DNA of 64,000 nucleotides from NCBI RefSeq assembly GCF_014695395.1, contig NZ_JACJOF010000004.1, forward strand, positions 1-64,000, read 5' to 3'. Shown one piece after another: positions 1-31,644 of the stretch. The first letter of the stretch is position 1; each line of letters starts with the position of its first letter. A program made the translations under genes and the position numbers. The notes beneath the pieces are model-generated. The model was given only the letters and a program-made list of their open reading frames with translations, was not told where the DNA came from and did not search any database. This DNA comes from Nodosilinea sp. FACHB-131. GTDB taxonomy: Bacteria; Cyanobacteriota; Cyanobacteriia; Phormidesmidales; Phormidesmidaceae.

Positions 1-147
1 AGTTACATTGAGCGATTCAACAATACTCTCAGACAGCGGGTTTCACGCTTTGTCAGACGCAGCTTAGCCTTCTCTAAAAGTCTGCGCAATCACATTGGCT
101 TGCTGTGGAATTTTATTCACCACTACAACGCATCATTACCTCTCTAG
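1..147 (+). mobile_element. IS1-family transposase, C-terminal fragment
   Basis: The first 147 bases read in frame to a TAG stop and encode 48 residues beginning SYIERFNNTLRQRV and ending HHYNASLPL. This resembles the C-terminal end of cyanobacterial IS1-type DDE transposases, where the catalytic Glu lies in a 'hxERxN' context; here that Glu would be E4. The N-terminal part lies outside the window. The sequence AGTACTACC just after the stop could be the terminal inverted repeat, because the sequence from about 157 on is homologous to a different gene. Family assignment rests on pattern recognition only. Confidence 0.7.
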
Positions 148-156
148 TACTACCAA

Positions 157-293
157 TCCTCCATGCCTATGGCTATGCCAACTCCAACGATTGGAGCGAC
201 CCGATCCCCGTGCCTTCCAGCGCGATCGAGACCGAATCGCCTAGCAGAGCCCAGACCTGGATGGTCATCCTGAACCAAAACTCTGCTGATTGA
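157..293 (+). pseudogene. Truncated copy of the multicopy small-protein family
   Basis: From about 157 the reading frame encodes ILHAYGYANSNDWSDPIPVP and then WMVILNQNSAD. This matches the C-terminal half of the intact small proteins at 19787-20080 and 31106-31387, which share ILHAxGYADPNDWSDPIPVP and WMVIxTKTxLxE. The N-terminal half, leader and promoter seen in the other copies are absent; the IS1-type transposase end lies directly in their place. The simplest reading is that an IS1-type insertion disrupted this copy. The terminal residues (NQNSAD instead of TKTLLIE) have also drifted, as expected for a decaying gene. Confidence 0.75.
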
Positions 294-332
294 GTAAGCC
301 TCAGTAGATCGAAAAGGCTTCTCTCAGCCTTG

Positions 333-19385: not shown

Positions 19386-19530
19386 ATTCCTGTTAGTGCT
19401 AAGGCCTTTATGACATCCTGAAACAGAGGCCTAACCAAATATTACTCCGCATAATAGACCTTCTGAGGATCTCATGCAGAGATTTTTAGAGTCTTTCCGT
19501 CGCTAATGTCCCTTTCCCTTCCCTAAACGG

Positions 19531-19559
19531 TTGACGGGGAGCGATCGCACCACTATTAT
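19531..19559 (+). promoter_or_regulatory. Promoter of leader/small-gene copy A
   Basis: TTGACG (19531-19536), a 17-base spacer and TATTAT (19554-19559) form a near-consensus sigma-70 promoter. Copy B has the same -35, the same spacer length and TATTCT at the same place, and the first six bases of the spacer are similar (GGGAGCG/AGGAGCG), so it is conserved between paralogous loci. Transcription start would be near 19566. Confidence 0.75.
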
Positions 19560-19564
19560 CATCC

Positions 19565-19786
19565 ATTAAGCCGTTTGAGCAGAACGGTGGCCATGCAGAA
19601 CTCGAAAATCTTAGCGCTGCCTGAAGGTGCTGGAACACCAACAGACAGCTAACCCCGCAAATCTTGCACGCAGATTGCGAGGCTAGGCTCATCGTACCCT
19701 AGCCCCCTCAGTTTGCACTTCAGCTGCGGGTGGCTGGGGTTTTCGCGTTCTGTCTTCCTCAAACCCATAAAAGGAATACAGAACCG
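19565..19786 (+). ncRNA. Conserved structured leader of small gene, copy A
   Basis: About 220 bases of 5' leader are strongly conserved with copy B (31388-31610). It holds a short ORF (19593-19652, first residues MQNSK-LALPEG shared), a stem AATCT/AGATT around 19664-19680, and a hairpin CCCTAGCC (19697-19704)/GGCTGGGG (19732-19739) followed by TTTT. In copy B the hairpin stem is CCCTAGCT/AGCTAGGG, so pairing is kept by compensatory change. A T-run after the GC-rich stem and 48 bases to the small-gene ATG suggest a terminator-type attenuator. Function is inference. Confidence 0.65.
19593..19652 (+). CDS. Candidate leader peptide (uORF), copy A
   Basis: ATG opens a 19-codon ORF starting MQNSKILALPEG, ending TAA. 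The first 12 codons match copy B (MQNSKTLALPEG) except one residue; an indel then shifts the frame so the ends differ (19 and 24 codons). No obvious regulatory codon cluster. Conservation may reflect RNA rather than peptide; translation is not proven. Confidence 0.3.
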   Translation: MQNSKILALPEGAGTPTDS

Positions 19787-20080
19787 ATGTTTGAATATCT
19801 CGAACCAGACGCCAACGACAACCCAGAGGCCGGTTCCCTACCGCTGCCGCCCAGTGGGGACAGCAAAGGCACCCGACCCCTCACCCCCGAAAAAGTGCGC
19901 CACATGCTCTACGGCAGCCTCGCCGCCCTAGACCGCACCATCAAGATTCTCCATGCCCTCGGCTACGCCGACCCCAACGACTGGAGCGACCCCATCCCCG
20001 TGCCGCCCAGCGCCGAAGCGGCCACCCCCGCCCCTGCCCAGTGGATGGTGATCATGACCAAAACCATTCTGCTGGAGTAG
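19787..20080 (+). CDS. Small protein of multicopy leader-linked family, copy A
   Basis: 97 residues starting MFEYLEPDANDNP, then a Pro-rich linker and the conserved core LTPEKVRHMLYGSLAALDRTIKILH, ALGYADPNDWSDPIPVP, ending WMVIMTKTILLE. Paralogous to copy B (93 residues) and the truncated copy at 157-293. AAGGA lies 13 bases upstream of the ATG. No signal peptide or membrane segment. Similar short proteins recur in multiple copies in Leptolyngbya-like genomes as far as I recall, with no assigned function. It is transcribed away from the HEPN-like gene. Confidence 0.85.
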   Translation: MFEYLEPDANDNPEAGSLPLPPSGDSKGTRPLTPEKVRHMLYGSLAALDRTIKILHALGYADPNDWSDPIPVPPSAEAATPAPAQWMVIMTKTILLE

Positions 20081-20121
20081 CCTACAGCCTCAGATCCCAG
20101 GGTTCTAGTAGGGGCGTTTGC

Positions 20122-21264
20122 TTAAGGCAAAGCACTAAAGCCAGAACCCTGGGATCTATCTCGCAGAGACTTTTGCTCCAGCAACGCTTCTACCGCCCCC
20201 AATAGCTCCGGCTGGCCCCAGTTTTGGTAGAGCGAGGCTGCGATCGCACATCCCCCCGCTCCCACGCCCTCCTTCACAAACCCCCGCTCGTAGGCTCGCA
20301 GCGCCTCAAACCGCGACTCTGCAAAGCTCAACCGCGTCGCCAGCAAACAGGCCCCCGTCAGCTCCGCCAGCCCCACCGTATCCCCGGTAGCATCCTCCGC
20401 CACCCAGCGCGTGGTTCCCACCACCACATTCTGCGGATTCCACTCGCAGCCTTCTGCCGCCGCCATTGCCACCATCAGCGCATAGACCGCCAGCATTTGC
20501 GTGCCCCCCGCCAGCAACACCGGCTTGGTACGACTAGCCGCGATCGCCATCCCCGCCACCACCGGCTGCATCGGGTCACCCACCGCCGCCGCCACCGCTA
20601 GAGGATGGGGCCGATCTGGCAAGCCAGCGCGAGATAGTCCCCTAACAACTAAGGCTTTCTTCTGATCGTGGTTACAGGTGGGGTGGCTGCTGTTGACTCG
20701 CTCCATCGCATCCACCCCCAACCCGGTGAGCAGCCCCAAGGCTGTAGTCGTGCCCCCCACCACGCACTCCGCCAGCAGCAGGTAGTCGCTTTCGTCACCC
20801 AGCAATTCCTCCTGAGCCAACCCCTGCCGCCAGAGATGCTGCACCACCCCCAACGGTAAAGCTGCCCCCGTGCTCAGACACTGCGCAGGTTTTCCTCCAA
20901 GATCGACATAGGGTACCGTTGGCGGCTGGGGCAATCCAGCATTCAGAACGATAAGGGGAATGCCCTGCCCGGCAATGACGGCTCTAGAAATCAGTGCTGG
21001 AGAAGCCCCGGCCTGAAGCGGCGGCAGCGGAAACGTCGGGGATGATGTGAGGCCATTGATCATAAACTCGGCATCGGCTAGGGCAGTGTAGCGGCGATCG
21101 CGCGGAGTCGCCCCCGCTGCCGAAATTCCCTCAACCAGTCCCGTCTCCGTAAACCCCAGCGTCAGCACCAGCCCCGGACGCAACCCCCGCACCCGCCCCA
21201 GCCAATCCTCCCCCTGCCGCCGCTGCGTATAAACCTCAATCAGCCCCTCACCCCCACTCCCCAT
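20122..21264 (-). CDS. cobT: Nicotinate-nucleotide-dimethylbenzimidazole phosphoribosyltransferase family (CobT-like)
   Basis: About 380 residues of the TIGR00303-type CobT-like family, acting in assembly of the lower ligand of cobamides (cyanobacteria mostly make pseudocobalamin, so the actual base may be adenine). Features are EVYTQRRQGEDWL, LGFTETGLVEGISAAGATPRDRRYTALADAEF, and LLAGGTQMLAVYALM. The ATG at 21264 is chosen, since the upstream 23 codons are only the translated 8-bp tandem repeat (WVDGWMGGWVD). It follows the DUF2232 gene on the same strand. Confidence 0.85.
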   Translation of the reverse strand: MGSGGEGLIEVYTQRRQGEDWLGRVRGLRPGLVLTLGFTETGLVEGISAAGATPRDRRYTALADAEFMINGLTSSPTFPLPPLQAGASPALISRAVIAGQGIPLIVLNAGLPQPPTVPYVDLGGKPAQCLSTGAALPLGVVQHLWRQGLAQEELLGDESDYLLLAECVVGGTTTALGLLTGLGVDAMERVNSSHPTCNHDQKKALVVRGLSRAGLPDRPHPLAVAAAVGDPMQPVVAGMAIAASRTKPVLLAGGTQMLAVYALMVAMAAAEGCEWNPQNVVVGTTRWVAEDATGDTVGLAELTGACLLATRLSFAESRFEALRAYERGFVKEGVGAGGCAIAASLYQNWGQPELLGAVEALLEQKSLRDRSQGSGFSALP

Positions 21265-23198: not shown

Positions 23199-26100
23199 GT
23201 GCAGCAGGACGAACTGGAAGCTCTGGTAGCCGAAATTGACTCAATCTTGGGGGAAGCCGCGCCACGGCTGCCCTGGGTGATGTCGAATGATGCCAATCAG
23301 CGCCAGCTGCTGGCCCGTGCCCGGGCCTACCTGGCCGAGGTGCAAGCCACCCCCGAAGCCCAGGCTGCGCCTACTAGCGGCTTGCCCAACGACCCGACTA
23401 CCGCTGCCGCTAGCCAGGTGCTCAAGGCGCTACTGCAAGAAATGCAGTACCTGCGCGGGCAGACCATGCAGATTCTTGACCCTCTGCGCAACGAGGTGGC
23501 GACCCTCCGGCAGCAGCGGGAGCTGTTGCTGCAAGAGGTGCAGCAGCTTCAGCAGCAGCGCGTGCAGATCGACCAGGGCGCCAACCTTCACCAGCTGCCC
23601 CCCAGCTGGGAGGCAGCCCTACAGCAGATGACCCAGCAGCTTGAGGCTCGCCTCAGCGCTCAGGTTAACCAGTCGGTGCAGCGGCTTGAGTCGGCTACGG
23701 CTACGGCCTATGGGCTGATGCAGTCTCCCCAGGGGTTTGCCGATGGCGATGCCCCTGGCCTCACGCCTATGCAGCGGCTTGAGTTTCTCAAGCAGCTGCA
23801 GGCCCAGTCTGACCAGCTCATGCTGGGGTTCGATCAGTCGCTGCGATCGGTGTTTGACACACTGCAACAGAGCATTTACAGCTACCAAGATTCACTCAAC
23901 CAGGGGCTCAACCAGATGCACACCCTGGGCCAGCAGGGCGAGCTGATGTTTAGCGCCCTGGTGACGCATTTGGGTCAGCAAATTAACGCCGAGACTCTGA
24001 CCTATTTAGAGTCGGGTCAGCGCCGCGAATTGCCCCAGCCTCAGCCTGAGACCTTTACCCCTGAGACCTTAGATGGAGATACCTTTACCGAGGGGGAGAA
24101 TCAATCGGCTGATCTGGAAGCAGAGCTGGAGCTTGAGGCCCTAGATATTGGCTTTGACGATTTAGATGATCTAGGCGACGACGAGATCACCCTGCTGCAA
24201 TTTGAAGATGAGATTACCGAGCTCCAGCTTGATGACAACCTGGAAGCCGATTTGGACGCTGCCGAGGATGGCGCATCTTCGCCCCTTGATTTGCAGTTGC
24301 TTAACAGCCTGAATGTTGCTGCCCCCGATCCATCCCCAGCGGTGTCGCTGCCCAACGGGGATGACTCCGCTACTGAGGTGGTGGCGGCTGGGGTAGAGGC
24401 TGAATCAGCCCTAGACGATCTCTACCAGAGCTTGTTTGGCGGCGGATTTTTTGCTGACTCTGCTGAGGCCGCGCCTGCGGCTGACTCAGGGGATGCCTTA
24501 GATGATTTTTTGGCGATCGACCGTCTGAGTGAGGAAGCGCCCCCCGCAGATGAGCCCGATGCGATCGCCTCTCCGGAGCCAACCAGTGATTTACCTCGTC
24601 CTGACGACCTAACCCTGCTTACCCAGTCAGCTGAGACGGCCGACACCGACGCGGTTACCGACCTCACCAGCCTTGACCTGGGCAGCCTGCTGGGGGAAAC
24701 GAGCGATCGCCTCGACTCCATAGCACCCGCTGGGGCTGGGTTTAACCTTCCTGACACCATCAAATCCTTCGACGATTTGCTGCCCGCCAGCCCTGGAGAG
24801 GCGGGGAACTCAGAGACTGCCGCTAGCGATGGCGAAGACCTGCTGGGCGGGTTTATGGCCGCTTCCCCCGAAGAAGACTTGCTGGCCCAAGACGCCCTGC
24901 CCATCACTGGTGCCTACGACCTGACTATGGATGACACCATGGTTGACCAGCTCCAGGAAGACCTGGAGAATCTAGAAACCGAGGTGGCCTCTGACAACCT
25001 GTCGCCAATCGACTTAGAGCTTGACCTGACTGATTCTCCAGAGCTATTTAGCCCGCCTGACGAGGTGCCCCCTTCTTCCATTAGTGGCGTTGATCTTTTC
25101 GCCGATCAAGAGCCTGCCCCTGACAATACCTCACCCGCTACCTTCGATCGCCCCACCGAGGCCGTCATGCCAAAGGAGCCTGGTTTCGACTTGTTCGGCG
25201 ACGAGCCCACTACTTCAGAACCGGCTCAAGACCTCGACCTGTTTGGCTCAGAGGCATACACCCCTGCTACCGCCGCCTTAGATCAGGTGACGTTGAGCGA
25301 TCTGGATATTGACTCTCTGGAGCAACCACCGGTAGAACCGCCCGCAGCGGAGCCAACTTCAGATTGGTCTAGCCTCGATCGCTTAGAACTTGAGACGCTA
25401 GAGCCAGAGCCGACCTTCTCTGAGGAAGTACCCAGCATTGACCTGTTCAGCGACGCAGCGTTGGCAGACCTCACCCTAGACCAGTTAGAGACAGATCAAG
25501 GCGATCGGCCGTCCCCTGTCTTCGATTCACCTAACCTGGAGAACGTCAGCCCTGACTCTGACCCGTCGGCCTTTAGGGTTGATGAAGCCGTGAGTGAGCC
25601 AGGCGCAAATGACCTGGGCATTGATCTATTCGCATCGCCCGCCTCGGATGACGCTGCCGGGGAGAATGCAGTTGATCTGTTTGGTCAGATTGATCAGCCG
25701 TCGCCTGGTGTAGATGAACCTGCCGGCATTGATCTGTTTGACAGCCCCATAGCCGATGTAGGGGATGAGCCCCTCGACCTGCCCGCCCCTGCGGCAGAGG
25801 CCCCAGGCCTCGATCTATTTGGCGAGCCAGAGCCAGAGACGCCTTCCCTCATAACTAATGTAGATGGCGGCTTAAATCTGTTTGATATCTCAGCGCTTAC
25901 TCTAGATGACCCTCAGCCAGACGAAGCTGGTCTCGACTTGTTTGGGGATGCGGCTGTGCCAGAAGCACCCGCAGCCGAACCTGCGATCGACCTGTTTGGC
26001 GAAACCACTCAGCCTCAGCAGACTGAGTCCGGAGATCTGTTTGGTGCCGTGGATGAGGCCCCTACGGCTTCGGCCGCTAGCGATTCTCTGGCCTCTATCT

Positions 26101-29100
26101 TGGCGGAGCTCAATCTAAGCTTAGAACCCGAGCAACCTGCCCTGGGCGAATCGGGTTTAACCCTTGACGCTCTCACCGAATTATCTACCCCCGCGCCAGA
26201 TCAACCCTCCCCACCACCCTCTACCTCCACCACGGGGGCAACAGGTCCTTCCCTGACCCTAGAGAATTTGTTGGGAGAGCTGACCCTTGATCCGTTGACA
26301 CCGCTGGCTCCCAATCCAAAACTGGAAGAAACCACCCTAGATGATCTAGCCTCCACTGGGTTTGGGGAAACCCCTAGTCCAGCGGCTCCTACGTCACCCC
26401 CGGCTGAGTTTACGCTGGCTGATTTTAACTTAGGTCCGGGTGCCAGCGGCCCCCTCGACTCGGCCCGCCAACCCGACCCGCCGGGCGACACTATGGCCGA
26501 CTTGTTCTCACCGGATTCTGCTGCACAGCCGGCCTCAGAAAATCTCACTCTAGAGGAGCTCGATCTAGAAGGTGAGTTGCCTGACGCCTTTGCTCCGCTA
26601 GAGGCTGAGCCAGCGGAGTCAACGCTCATCCCAGATTGGGGACTATCGGCTGCACCTTTGGAGCCCGCTGCGCCAGATCTCTCGATTACTTTGAATAGCT
26701 TAAACCTGAGCCTAGATGAGCCCGTCGCCGATGAGCCTGGCTTAGGCGATCTGCTCGGTGCTGAACCAACGGAGCCAGCGCTTACCCTAGAAAGCTGGGG
26801 ACTACCTGCTACGCCCCTGGAGCCCGCTGCCTCAGATCTCTCAATCACTCTAGACGACTTGAACCTGAGCCTAGACGAGCCCGTCGCCGATGAGTTTGGC
26901 CTGGGCGATCCGTCAGATTCTGAGCCAACGGAGTCAGCGCTGATCCCAGACTGGGGACTGTCTGCTGCACCTTCAGAGCCCGCTGTCTCCGATCTCTCGA
27001 TTACTCTGGATGACTTAAACCTGAGCCTAGATGAGCCCGTCGTGGATGAGCCTGGCTTAGGCGATCTGCTAGGTGCTGAGCCAACGGAGCCAGCGCTCAC
27101 CCTAGAAACCTGGGGGCTGTCCGCTACGCCCTCGGAGCCCGCTGCGTCAGATCTCTCGATTACTCTAGATGACCTGAATCTGAGCCTAGACGAGCCCAGC
27201 GCCGATGAGCCTGGGCTAGGTGATTTAAATGCCTTGGGCGATTTGGTGGCTGACGATACTGTGCTTGCCGACGCCCCGGTAGAGACAGCCACCGACTGGC
27301 AACGGGAAATCAGTCTCGACAATATTCTGGATGCTGCTGGGGCCAATTTTGAAGAAACTTTACCACCGTTAGCAGAGCCTCAGCCGGAACCCGACCCGAT
27401 TGAATCGGCGGCCGCAGAGACAGCCGATTCAATGGAGGCAATGATTGACTTCATCAATCTCGATGCGCTGTTGGGAGAACCCCTGACCCCAGTTTCCTCA
27501 GAGCCAAGCCTTGAGTTAGACCTCGACTTCAACCTTGAGCCTGACACCCTAGACTCTGAATCCCAAGACTTTAGTGACCTAGACCTCGGTGCATTAGATC
27601 TGGGGCTGTTAGATGGCGGTGAGGCGATCGCCGAACCAGAGCCTCGCTTCCCCCTCGATACTCCGCTGCCGGTTGAGTTTGGCTTAGGGCGCGATCGCCC
27701 CTCGGTAGATGAGCCCACCAGTTTAGATCTGAATCTAGACCTGAGCCTTGAGCCAGAACCTGCCGCTGACCCACAGGCCGACCTAGATTTTTCTATAGAA
27801 GACTGGCTGGGAGACTCTACCCCTGCCCAGGATGAAGCCGCTGGGGCAGAGGCTAGCCTAAGCAGTTTGGACGATTCTGTAGAGCCACCTGCTCCAGCAC
27901 TGGATACGGAATGGTCTCTGGACGCAGAACCCGCTCAGGATGAATCTGCATACATCTTTGATGAGCCCATTGAGGACGTAGACGAGATCGCCGTTGAACC
28001 GGTGACAGCCAATGACTTCACCTTCGACACCTTTGACAGCTTTGATGAGACCGCTGCCCTTGAGGCGGATGCTGTTGAACTGGATGCGATCGCCCCAGGG
28101 TCAGAGCCAGACTTACCAGACGTAGCGGCCTCAGAACTTGAGACCCAGGAACCCGAGATCCAGGAACCAGAAGCCCCACCAGACTTCCTAGAGCTTGACC
28201 AACTACTGGCAGGCATGGACTTTGGCCCTGAATCCACCCTGGCCACTGATCCAAGCGGCCTAGTTGCGCCGGTCGTAGAGCCACCTGAAACTACCGAGCC
28301 CGAAACCCTTGCGCCCGAAACCCTTGCGCCCGAAACCCTTGCGCCTGAAACCGTTGAACCTGAGGTACTTGAACCCGCCGCCGTCGAACCCGAGATTCCT
28401 GCCAACCTGGAGATCGATCAATCCGATGCGGTTATTCCAGGGCCACCAGTGGATGCTGAGCCAGCGCCTGCCGCACCCACCCCCCTGTGGTTTTTGGGTT
28501 TGGATGTGGGTACCACCGGTCTGTCGGCAGTGCTCTTGGAACGTCGGGGTGGCCAGGTTTATCCCCTCTACTGGGTCGATAATGCTATCTCTGGGGTGAC
28601 CGCCGACAAATTCTTTCGCCTGCCGTCACTGGCCTCGGTGGAGGCCAACGGCGAGGGCTACCAAGTGCAGTCGGTGGGCTCGTCGGCCCTGACCGTGAAC
28701 TGGAGCGATGGCGATACTGCTGACCAGGGTGCGGTGTTGCTCAAAGCGCTAAAGCCCTATCTCAAGCTGGGCATTCCATTCACCGGGGCAGACGGTCTCA
28801 AACCTCAGGTGCAGTGGTCCGATCGCGATCGCATTCCCCTGCCCGTCTTCCAGGACAGCCTGACTCGGCTGTTGGCCACCCTGCCCGTGGGGCTAACCCC
28901 GAAGGCCGCCTTTACGGTGGGTGCCGTCGGCCTTGATGCTGAGGCGATCGCTCGAGCGCTGCAAGCCCTCAACGGGGTCGTTGTCAGCTACCCGGCCAAC
29001 TGGCCCGACACCTACACCTTTAACCTGCGGGAGGCGGTGCTAGGGGCAGGACTCACCGCCAACCCCGACGATATTTATTTTGTAGAAGACGCGATCGCCG

Positions 29101-30341
29101 CCGTGCTCTCGGGCCTGCCCGATCCTTCAACCCCGCTGCCCGAGGGCAACGGTCAGCCCATACAGCAGCAGGCTCTCTACGCCTGCCCCTGGACTGGGGG
29201 CACGGTGGTGCTCTCCGCCGGAGCCAGCGTGACCGAGGTGGGCATTGTCGATCTGCCCAGAGCCTTGGGTGAACTCTCCTACAGCGACTTTGCCCTGCAC
29301 TCGATGAGCTATGCAGGCGACGCCATCGACCTCGACATTATTTGTCACCTGCTGCACCCCGCCGAACGTCGTCAAAGTCGCCCCGCTGAGGGCTCTGGGC
29401 GATCGCCGCAATCCACCGGCTGGGGCTGGCAGGCCGCGATGCCCGAGCTAGATGGCACTCATTGGAGCGATCTCGACCTCGATGGTTGCGAAATGCCCCG
29501 CCCTGCCGAGCCTGATATAGCTCGCCGCCAGCGCCTCTACCAGCGGCTAGAAACCTCTCTGCTGGGCCAGAGCGCGCTAGAAGCGGCGCGACACTTGAAG
29601 ATTATTCTTCAGCACCAGCCCCAGTTTGAGCTAGAGCTGGCCGATCAGCGCTGGGTGGTGCGCAGCAAAGACCTGGAAGACCGGATTATTCTGCCCTACA
29701 TTCAGCGCATCAACGGCCACGTCAACCGGCTGCTGAGCGAGGTCGGGCTCAATACCCAGGGCATTAACCAGGTGATCTGCACCGGCGGCAGCGCCTCATT
29801 GCCCAAGATCGCCCGCTGGCTGCGGCAAAAGTTCCCCAATGCCACCATTGTGCAGGATACGTACCACAGCGATCGCCCCCCCAGCTGTAGCCGGGTCACC
29901 TACGGGCTGGTCAACCTGGTGCGCTATCCCCAAGTGCTCGACCTCACCCGCCACCAGTACAGCGACATGTTCTTGCTGATGGAGGTACTGCGGACCCTGC
30001 CCGAGCAGCCCATGCCCCTCAGCGGCATGCTGCACCTGCTCAAAGAACGGGGTCTAAACGTCGATGCCTGTCAGGCTCACCTCATGGCGCTGCTAGAGGG
30101 TCGCCTGCCGCCCGGTCTGCTACCCAGCACCAGTGGTGGCCCCTCGGCACTAGTGCCCGCCAGCGATGAACTGGCGACTCTGGCCACTACGCCGCTGTTC
30201 ACCCGACCCAATGGCCAGGTCTACGTGCCCAACCTGGAGCAGGGCCAGCGACTGATCAGTTATATGGAGCAGCTGCTAGCCAACAAGCACCAAACCCTGG
30301 TTGACCCCTTGCTGAGCCAGCTCACGGTACTGAATGTGTGA
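23199..30341 (+). CDS. Giant 2380-residue protein with acidic repeat region and C-terminal Hsp70-like domain
   Basis: Start GTG with AAGGGG upstream. Residues 1-285 are Gln/Leu-rich and likely coiled coil ([19 protein letters not shown]). About 300-1760 is acidic, Pro/Ser/Asp/Glu-rich low complexity with 13 [x]DLF motifs (about 630-1100) and about four 52-53-residue repeats ([16 protein letters not shown], about 1135-1345), plus three PETLA repeats (about 1704-1718). From about 1763 to 2380 is an actin-fold ATPase of Hsp70 type: phosphate-1 LGLDVGTTG, then [29 protein letters not shown], and [13 protein letters not shown]. Hsp70-like proteins with long disordered N termini are rare. No signal peptide. 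Function unknown. Confidence 0.88.
26600..27225 (+). repeat. 52-53-residue tandem repeats inside giant gene
   Basis: Four units of about 159 bases each encode DLSITL(D/N)(D/S)[24 protein letters not shown](S/T)WGL and EPAxSD. Units 2-4 are nearly identical at protein level but differ in many synonymous positions, so the protein repeat is selected or slowly diverging rather than fresh duplication. Confidence 0.85.
28306..28350 (+). repeat. 15-bp tandem repeat, codes for PETLA
   Basis: Three near-perfect 15-base copies (CCCGAAACCCTTGCG) encode (A)PETL repeats in the proline-rich linker just before the Hsp70-like domain. They are exact enough to suggest recent slippage. Confidence 0.8.
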
Positions 30342-31387: not shown

Positions 31388-31610
31388 CGGTTCTGTGTTC
31401 CTTCTAGGGGTTTGAGGAAGACAGAACGCGAAAACCCTAGCTAACCGCAGCTGAGGTGCAAACTGGGAGAGCTAGGGTACGATCGACCTTAGCCCGGCAA
31501 TCTGCGTGCTAGATTTGCGGGGTTAGCTGTCTGTTGGTGGTTGCAACACCTTCAGGCAGCGCCAAAGTTTTCGAGTTCTGCATGGTCGCCGGTCGGGTTG
31601 AACGGCTTAA
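31388..31610 (-). ncRNA. Conserved structured leader of small gene, copy B
   Basis: On the minus strand this aligns along its length with the copy A leader. It holds the uORF (31509-31583), the AATCT/AGATT stem and the hairpin AGCTAGGG/CCCTAGCT (31435-31477), a perfect 8-bp stem followed by TTTT. Relative to copy A, a C-G pair became T-A and a T-G pair became T-A, so base pairing is maintained. Confidence 0.65.
31509..31583 (-). CDS. Candidate leader peptide (uORF), copy B
   Basis: A 24-codon ORF starting MQNSKTLALPEG and ending TAG. The start and first 12 codons correspond to copy A; the C-terminal part is shifted by one base. Might regulate the downstream hairpin by translation, or be incidental. 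Confidence 0.3.
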   Translation of the reverse strand: MQNSKTLALPEGVATTNRQLTPQI

Positions 31611-31615
31611 AGTAG

Positions 31616-31644
31616 AGAATACTGGTACAGACGCTCCTCGTCAA
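31616..31644 (-). promoter_or_regulatory. Promoter of leader/small-gene copy B
   Basis: On the minus strand TTGACG (31644-31639), 17 bases, then TATTCT (31621-31616). Identical -35 and spacing to copy A, and it marks the upstream limit of sequence similarity between the two copies. Confidence 0.75.

Follow-up and report, generated by a model that had tools for sequence, protein, structure and literature searches.

We find that the two small genes in the window, the first 64 kb of one contig from a 6.16-Mb genome, each lie behind a leader RNA whose helices P1 and H1-H4 are kept by compensatory change. That the leader represents a structured RNA class is well supported, and our searches of Rfam and of the open-licence literature did not find it there. 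Our preferred reading, which we put at roughly two chances in three, is that the leader acts as a two-gate attenuator, in which the gene would be on when P1 is formed and off when P1 is absent; termination, blocking of the ribosome-binding site (RBS), the direction of control and any signal are parts of this reading that we infer. What is added is a structured RNA class for which our searches gave no match in Rfam 15, along with a protein family that is not catalogued; filamentous cyanobacteria carry both in multiple copies, and the RNA class has relatives in Chloroflexota.

As an earlier note on this DNA had proposed, the window holds two intact loci with a common promoter, leader, hairpin and small gene, which we refer to as copy A (19531-20080, plus strand) and copy B (31644-31106, minus strand). 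Both carry the -35 hexamer TTGACG (19531-19536 in A, 31644-31639 in B), a 17-base spacer and a -10 hexamer (TATTAT at 19554-19559 in A, TATTCT at 31621-31616 in B), followed by a leader layout of equal length and a hairpin with TTTT behind it, the stem ending 47 bases 5' of the start codon in the two copies alike. The leaders are 85% identical, and each folds far below its shuffles (z -4.8 for A and -4.6 for B; 0/200 shuffles). The truncated third copy reported in the same note was likewise seen, at about 147-293; it lies directly 3' of an IS1-type transposase end (PF03400, 27.4 bits against a cut-off of 24.1) and has a frameshift in the C-terminus of the small protein. No tRNA was found within the 64-kb window. 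A Uma2-type endonuclease gene (PF05685, 30418-31074) is convergent with copy B, and a 2380-aa ORF (23199-30341) contains a tandem repeat of 159 bp (26604-27214).

Table 1 Features of the leader-gene units in the window. R3 is the covariance model built from 32 diverse copies of the leader.
Feature	Position	Strand	Basis
Promoter-like -35/-10, copy A	19531..19559	+	sequence; left edge common to most copies; placed TTGAC
Structured leader RNA domain, copy A	19596..19752	+	R3 167.6 bits; compensatory changes
Leader helix P1, copy A	5' strand 19596-19615; 3' strand 19733-19752	+	
Leader hairpins, copy A	H1 19616-19649; H2 19657-19678; H3 19681-19704; H4 19705-19730	+	
Alternative terminator-like hairpin (19697-19739) and TTTT (19740-19743), copy A	19697..19743	+	folding of the 3' part
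Predicted RBS hairpin, copy A: GTTCTGT (P1 3' strand) with ACAGAAC 5' of the start codon	19747..19784	+	
Small gene, copy A, 97 aa, without Pfam/NCBIfam match	19787..20080	+	
15-bp inverted repeat 3' of the copy A stop codon, possible 3' terminator	20092..20157	+	by eye
Promoter-like -35 TTGACG/-10 TATTCT, copy B	31616..31644	-	sequence; conserved edge
Structured leader RNA domain, copy B	31422..31580	-	R3 148.1 bits
Alternative terminator-like hairpin and TTTT, copy B	31431..31477	-	fold; genus pairing count
Predicted RBS hairpin, copy B	31390..31427	-	leader fold; copy B outside the RBS swap test
Small gene, copy B, 93 aa	31106..31387	-	
Third copy, truncated and frameshifted, behind the IS1-type transposase end	147..299	+	

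The earlier note listed three copies; the repeats are real, and their family is much larger. DNA similarity identified 12 leader copies in the genome itself, at 83-100% identity over most of the length, and R3 gave 17 matches there, 16 of them strong at 84-168 bits. Ten of the 12 DNA matches start at or before query base 6 (ACGGTTGACG), with L042 and L041 starting at query bases 38 and 51, and the flanks of the own-genome copies otherwise differ, save for a few common repeats. The leader DNA is also present in 17/22 other genomes of the same genus, with 2 to 17 matches each; the named relatives that carry it belong to Nodosilinea or are comparable strains of Leptolyngbya or Phormidium type. 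To describe its wider range we used three covariance models: R1, built from 39 genus copies with the structure taken from RNAalifold's first consensus; R2, in which a hand-made structure with local H2 and H4 replaced that consensus; and R3. R1 identified full-length relatives in 6/386 cyanobacterial genomes, our own counted, R2 also detects the leader RNA in other cyanobacterial families, and R3 finds it in 13/386 genomes from 8/143 genera, one of the 13 (G008) being doubtful. No Rfam family reached threshold on the leader (Rfam 15), and no report of the RNA or the protein was found among the open-licence papers listed by our searches, mostly at the level of titles and the beginnings of abstracts.

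In the leader, P1 (19 pairs) encloses the four hairpins; H1 has 11 pairs and a 2x2 internal loop, and a CUAACC-type linker separates it from H2, which H3 and H4 follow. Across 32 diverse copies from several genera, P1 and H1-H4 were paired in 93.9% of cells, the weakest helix being H4 (86% paired). Both sides have changed at 40/50 pairs, a count as high as this occurring in 0/500 shuffles, and the covariation score was 0.521 versus 0.194 in shuffles (0/500 as high) and at most 0.103 in slid versions, on an alignment that was fitted to the model's structure and thus favors that structure. Copies from the genus by itself covary little, at 2 pairs, and the P1 strands are almost identical among the 39 genus copies. 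R2 outscored R1 for 8/8 f11/g15 relatives (31.6-50.2 vs 31.1-44.2 bits) and fell below it for 4/7 G215 relatives; because of these mixed scores we are surer of P1 and H1 than of the precise pairs in H2 and H4. R2 additionally detects the RNA 5' of four diverged own-genome paralogues (L015, L018, L019 and L020). A further hairpin, P0, on the 5' side of P1 was also considered as a conserved element and dropped, since for the most part it was not clearly better than shuffles.

The promoter-like element is placed consistently as well, with TTGAC found 63-81 nt 5' of P1 in 27/32 diverse copies, compared with 728/5,820 random 135-mers that contain TTGAC anywhere; a -10 with at least four matches to TATAAT was present in only 16/32. 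The short ORF (MQNSK-LALPEG) that had been counted among the conserved features did not hold up: it begins with ATG in 5/39 genus copies and with TTG in 2, and past LALPEG its reading frame differs between copies A and B because the length of the H1 loop changes. With a start codon that is rarely ATG and a frame that is not kept, attenuation through a uORF or leader peptide was rejected. The broader suggestion of a regulated RNA element is, by contrast, strongly supported by the cross-genus compensatory changes and the placed TTGAC, and further by the one gene family found downstream in cyanobacteria and by terminator-like and RBS hairpins that exclude P1. A recent duplication without further homologues or covariation was the reading that could have undone this suggestion; we found both homologues and covariation, and the RNA reading was not refuted. 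A conserved aptamer-like fold by covariation, combined with a predicted expression platform, gives the leader the general layout of a riboswitch.

The 3' strand of P1 has two further possible partners. It can form the 3' side of a GC-rich hairpin with U4-5 behind it, and at its end it is complementary to bases at or beside the Shine-Dalgarno sequence, so that P1 and the predicted terminator-like and RBS pairings exclude each other. In copy A, the terminator-like hairpin uses strands of H3, H4 and P1, and the predicted RBS hairpin encloses the Shine-Dalgarno sequence AAGGA (19771-19775). The terminator fold plus H1 and H2 left 97.3% of cells paired in the 39 genus copies, in which the P1 fold and the terminator fold both pair in 97-98% of cells. 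When the 3' part was folded separately, the minimum-energy structure placed the terminator-like hairpin beside an RBS-side hairpin in 15/15 clade representatives; the latter begins in the P1 3' strand or just 5' of it, and several of these folds contain further helices. In 31/32 diverse copies the final 28 nt of the RNA include a T-run of at least four.

The RBS-side pairing was evaluated by exchanging RBS sequences among 27/32 copies, leaving out L041 and four copies in which a start codon was not found. The duplex with the own leader beat the mean of the other-clade swaps in 24/27 (failures L138, L123 and L131), at least one foreign RBS paired better than the own one in 13/27, and the pairing ranked within the best 5% of letter shuffles in 21/27, with 6/27 outside. 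The Shine-Dalgarno sequence of the f11/g15 copies falls immediately outside the RBS hairpin; the G011 hairpin starts directly after P1 and scarcely overlaps it. Folds with P1 enforced and folds with the P1 5' strand barred were at most 5 kcal/mol apart in 20/32 copies, the P1 fold being the lower in energy in 26/32; where the difference exceeded 5 kcal/mol, P1 was favored in 11/12, though the downstream sequence is short in four copies. The free minimum-energy fold contained most of P1 in 19/32 copies and none of it in 13/32. Taken together, the pairing, swap, energy and TTGAC results are most simply read as a leader that has two mutually exclusive states.

In the attenuator that we favor, each copy would form a self-contained unit of promoter, ~220-nt leader with a structured body, and small protein gene. 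With P1 closed around H1-H4, the strand required for both the terminator and the RBS cover would be locked in P1, and we propose that RNA polymerase would then read on and the gene be translated. With P1 absent, the freed strand would complete the GC-rich hairpin preceding U4-5, favoring an end of the transcript, and would pair at or beside the Shine-Dalgarno sequence, silencing any message that had been read through. The balance could be set by a signal acting on the H1-H2-H3 body, or by an RNA that pairs with one P1 strand. The repeated promoter-RNA-gene unit, with 16 strong leader copies in this genome, offers a direct test of whether such regulatory RNAs act separately or as a common pool.

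Eleven of 15 relatives found with R1 have an ORF of the small-protein family behind them, three are cut by a contig end and one (L136) retains a 39-residue family remnant only; a family ORF lies 3' of the leader at 13/15 further loci, the others being L158, where the leader is truncated into its ORF, and L149, the G008 match (R3, 37 bits), which has none and may be false. In the genome itself, 14/17 leader places carry an intact family ORF and 3 are decayed by manual count, and a protein search there returned 10 intact close copies, plus fragments and weaker relatives. The profile missed the protein of G011, yet there too a recognisable family relative lies behind each of the three leaders inspected. 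From the fetched loci we gathered 101 distinct family members, mostly about 70-140 aa as called, with a core of roughly GS-x3-V-x2-TI-x2-LH-x-LGYA-x3-DWS ... EVMSIL-x-R. Neither window protein matched Pfam or NCBIfam up to E 1, and a comparison of 76 members with Pfam produced only stray single matches (SCIMP, E 0.0098; DUF3107, E 0.072). An AlphaFold2 model was confident only from about residue 31 (beta-alpha-beta-beta). Foldseek returned no match with E up to 0.001, which is no evidence for a new fold. A fold similarity to PII, CutA and dodecin-like small beta-alpha proteins was also considered; by Z score the best rows were tied between chain 3jc8_Oa of a type IVa pilus (Z 4.4, rmsd 5.7, 69 aligned) and GlnK2 (4ozn_C; Z 4.3, rmsd 2.8, 61 aligned), neither of them a trustworthy neighbor. 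A sequence search of solved structures gave one match at E 0.35, which is not meaningful. Icd-like proteins were tried as kin of the small protein and showed no profile similarity, in a comparison with only four Icd-like rows.

The protein profile matches more widely than the RNA, in 29/386 cyanobacterial genomes. On 33 family loci R3 gave no match up to E 10, and the leader RNA is thus not universal in the protein family. Among 29 RNA-less family loci inspected, 11 were judged divergent from a small HTH-like ORF, L085 is divergent from a ribbon-helix-helix (RHH) ORF, and two more have possible same-strand regulators; of ten neighbor proteins compared with Pfam, 6 HTH and 1 RHH protein pass the cut-off and 3 fail. 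These other family members may use protein regulators, in keeping with a regulatory role for the RNA as well. The loci divergent from small HTH-like regulator ORFs include L084, L024, L017, L021, L022, L069, L089 and L090, and at some RNA-less loci palindromic sequences were seen by eye between the family gene and the HTH-like ORF.

Outside cyanobacteria, R3 gave full-length matches in Anaerolineae and Thermoflexales (Chloroflexota) at 72.6, 67.2 and 47.1 bits among the matches listed, and these three genomes carry 2, 1 and 4 copies of the RNA (L162, L224, L226 and L308-L311). We inspected six of these seven copies, and they show P1 and T-runs. No stretch of the Chloroflexota loci inspected matches the small-protein family, under conditions in which the positive control does. 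H1 and its tail have a still wider range. A scan of public genomes for this pattern, which leaves the 5' side of the outer stem free, yielded at least 113 stretches, and we examined the 80 listed ones. Among the pattern matches evaluated, the outer stem is paired at 5/6 places or more in 30/30 cyanobacterial, 30/31 viral and 10/50 other matches; the 40/50 matches in non-cyanobacterial genomes with at most 4/6 places paired look like chance.

A hairpin with the GGTG/CACC inner stem and a CU(A/G)ACC tail lies 5' of ORFs in phages and some proteobacteria (L275-L305; L165, L232, L240 and L218). The ORFs behind it are Icd-like above the cut-off in 3/4 tested (the fourth scoring 24.1 vs 25), SymE toxins in 2/2 by Pfam, with scores that nevertheless fall well short of the threshold in NCBIfam's stricter SymE model, and HNH nucleases in 3/3 tested; three others (L194, L215 and L220) gave no match. 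The icd gene is under antisense control by C4. Phage Icd-like genes behind a similar hairpin recall the phage C4/CI setting, and in Pantoea and Erwinia the H1-like hairpin with a CUGACC tail precedes SymE-type genes, which recalls the SymR/symE leader (RF01809, PF08845); unlike SymE, the small proteins have no match to SymE_toxin. At Rfam thresholds neither C4 nor isrK was found on 11 viral loci with the H1 hairpin. For the leader itself, homology to SymR was rejected, at 31.3 bits against 61, on the minus strand and in only 1/8 copies. Two Rfam families match the H1-type hairpin of L165 (6892-6966) below threshold: symR at 40.4 bits against 61 on the minus strand, and R1162 plasmid antisense RNA at 31.0 against 55 on the plus strand. 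The H1 module may be shared through either common descent or reuse of a part, and it provides a handle on the hairpin 5' of phage growth-inhibitor genes.

The rival readings of the leader differ largely in what would act on P1. A metabolite or ion bound at the H1-H2-H3 junction could stabilise P1 and thereby activate the gene, which would be one particular form of the attenuator with its input named and which we consider possible rather than probable: the closed multihelix body, the conserved unpaired linker and the internal loop of H1 would suit a ligand, and P1 overlaps the terminator as in on-switches, but no pathway gene stands behind the leaders inspected, one gene family follows the 16 strong copies of a single genome, invariant unpaired bases are few (by eye), and H1 also stands without the rest of the RNA 5' of phage genes. 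Downstream-peptide RNA is a glutamine riboswitch. This RNA (RF01704) precedes unknown small cyanobacterial ORFs of 17-100 aa according to the parts of PMC2864571 considered, a precedent for a ligand that the leader here resembles in lying 5' of short cyanobacterial ORFs. Neither RF01704 nor C4 antisense RNA (RF01695) was found at gathering on the window, or up to E 5 on 19480-20180. Alternatively, terminated leaders may pair through their P1 strands with their own or sibling read-through messages, as with IsrK and P4 CI. IsrK, from the Salmonella prophage Gifsy-1, is the closest working precedent: as PMC4825925 describes it, the terminated form acts in trans to switch on the read-through message, which is otherwise silent, and the two predicted folds lie at -85.66 and -84.21 kcal/mol. 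Compared with that account, the predicted layout here is similar, with a terminator in the leader, a closed RBS on the read-through message, a small ORF downstream and two alternative folds of similar energy; on the other side, no Rfam match to isrK was found here at threshold, and IsrK is a single prophage locus with other proteins, for which trans activation has been demonstrated. Complementary segments 5' and 3' of the RNA body recall phage P4 CI RNA (as described in part of PMC4825925) and phage P1 C4 antisense RNA (in part of PMC2864571, which gives the c4-a1b1 motif without an Rfam number there), and premature termination is a P4 CI feature to which the predicted terminator may be likened. 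The near identity of the P1 strands within the genus would suit pairing between RNAs, as would the presence of H1 and its tail before Icd-like and SymE-type genes, SymE being under the antisense RNA SymR in the part of PMC1891008 considered; against this, P1 is equally a good cis helix, and C4, isrK and other Rfam families remained unmatched at threshold. Since the anatomy resembles IsrK and H1 precedes phage genes, we regard an RNA input in trans as a serious alternative to a small ligand, albeit a tentative one. More doubtful is its extension to a multicopy pool, in which any terminated leader would pair via P1 with sibling messages and H1-CUAACC would be a cross-phylum part common to phage Icd and SymE-type leaders as well; if true, one leader-RNA pool would set all small genes of the multicopy family, and the cyanobacterial sets would be chromosome-spread relatives of phage immunity-type RNA control. 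The parts of PMC4825925, PMC2864571 and PMC12390103 considered do not report the leader RNA; the last presents its type I toxin-antitoxin system as the first from cyanobacteria.

That the small protein binds its own leader seems unlikely to us. The RNA is tied to the protein family in cyanobacteria, and other family members adjoin HTH or RHH regulators, which would be in keeping with autogenous control, but the Chloroflexota loci inspected have the RNA without the family and the 33 family loci tested have the family without the RNA. Least probable of all, and in our view a distant prospect, is that the conserved hairpins serve DNA transfer in a mobile or selfish element and not gene control. 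Such an element could explain dispersed copies with a common left edge, loop inversions, integrase ORFs that end upstream of two copies, and the greater RNA identity of the paralogues L031 and L033 (97.5%) than of L031 and the flank-matched L094 and L096 (92.4%). It would not account for the pairing logic of the RBS and U-run or for the placed TTGAC element, and for L032 the identity is higher with the flank-matched L093 (96.8%) than with its best paralogue (95.6%). Some copies, moreover, share downstream flanks between species, which argues that they are old residents.

We compared 25 pairs of copies from different genomes that have 300 nt or more of flank in common; 20 share the downstream side only, and some of this sharing runs through a gene that is itself repeated. 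The mixed identities of paralogous and flank-matched copies suggest gene conversion or unit copying for some copies only. Among 56 genus leaders (L031-L120, L164-L241), 6/32 distinct H1 loops also occur as the exact reverse complement (shuffle mean 0.17; 0/2,000 shuffles reach 6), with CTGGAA/TTCCAG, CCGTTAA/TTAACGG and GTGAGA/TCTCAC present in both orientations, as if the H1 loop flipped between its arms. The integrase ORFs (Phage_integrase, PF00589) end about 100 nt 5' of P1 (L052, 5255-5770; L055, 7374-7727). Arrays of imperfect ~21-nt repeats, e.g. GTGGCACAGCTGTTTAGC, were seen by eye 3' of the L008, L009, L010, L004 and L011 ORFs.
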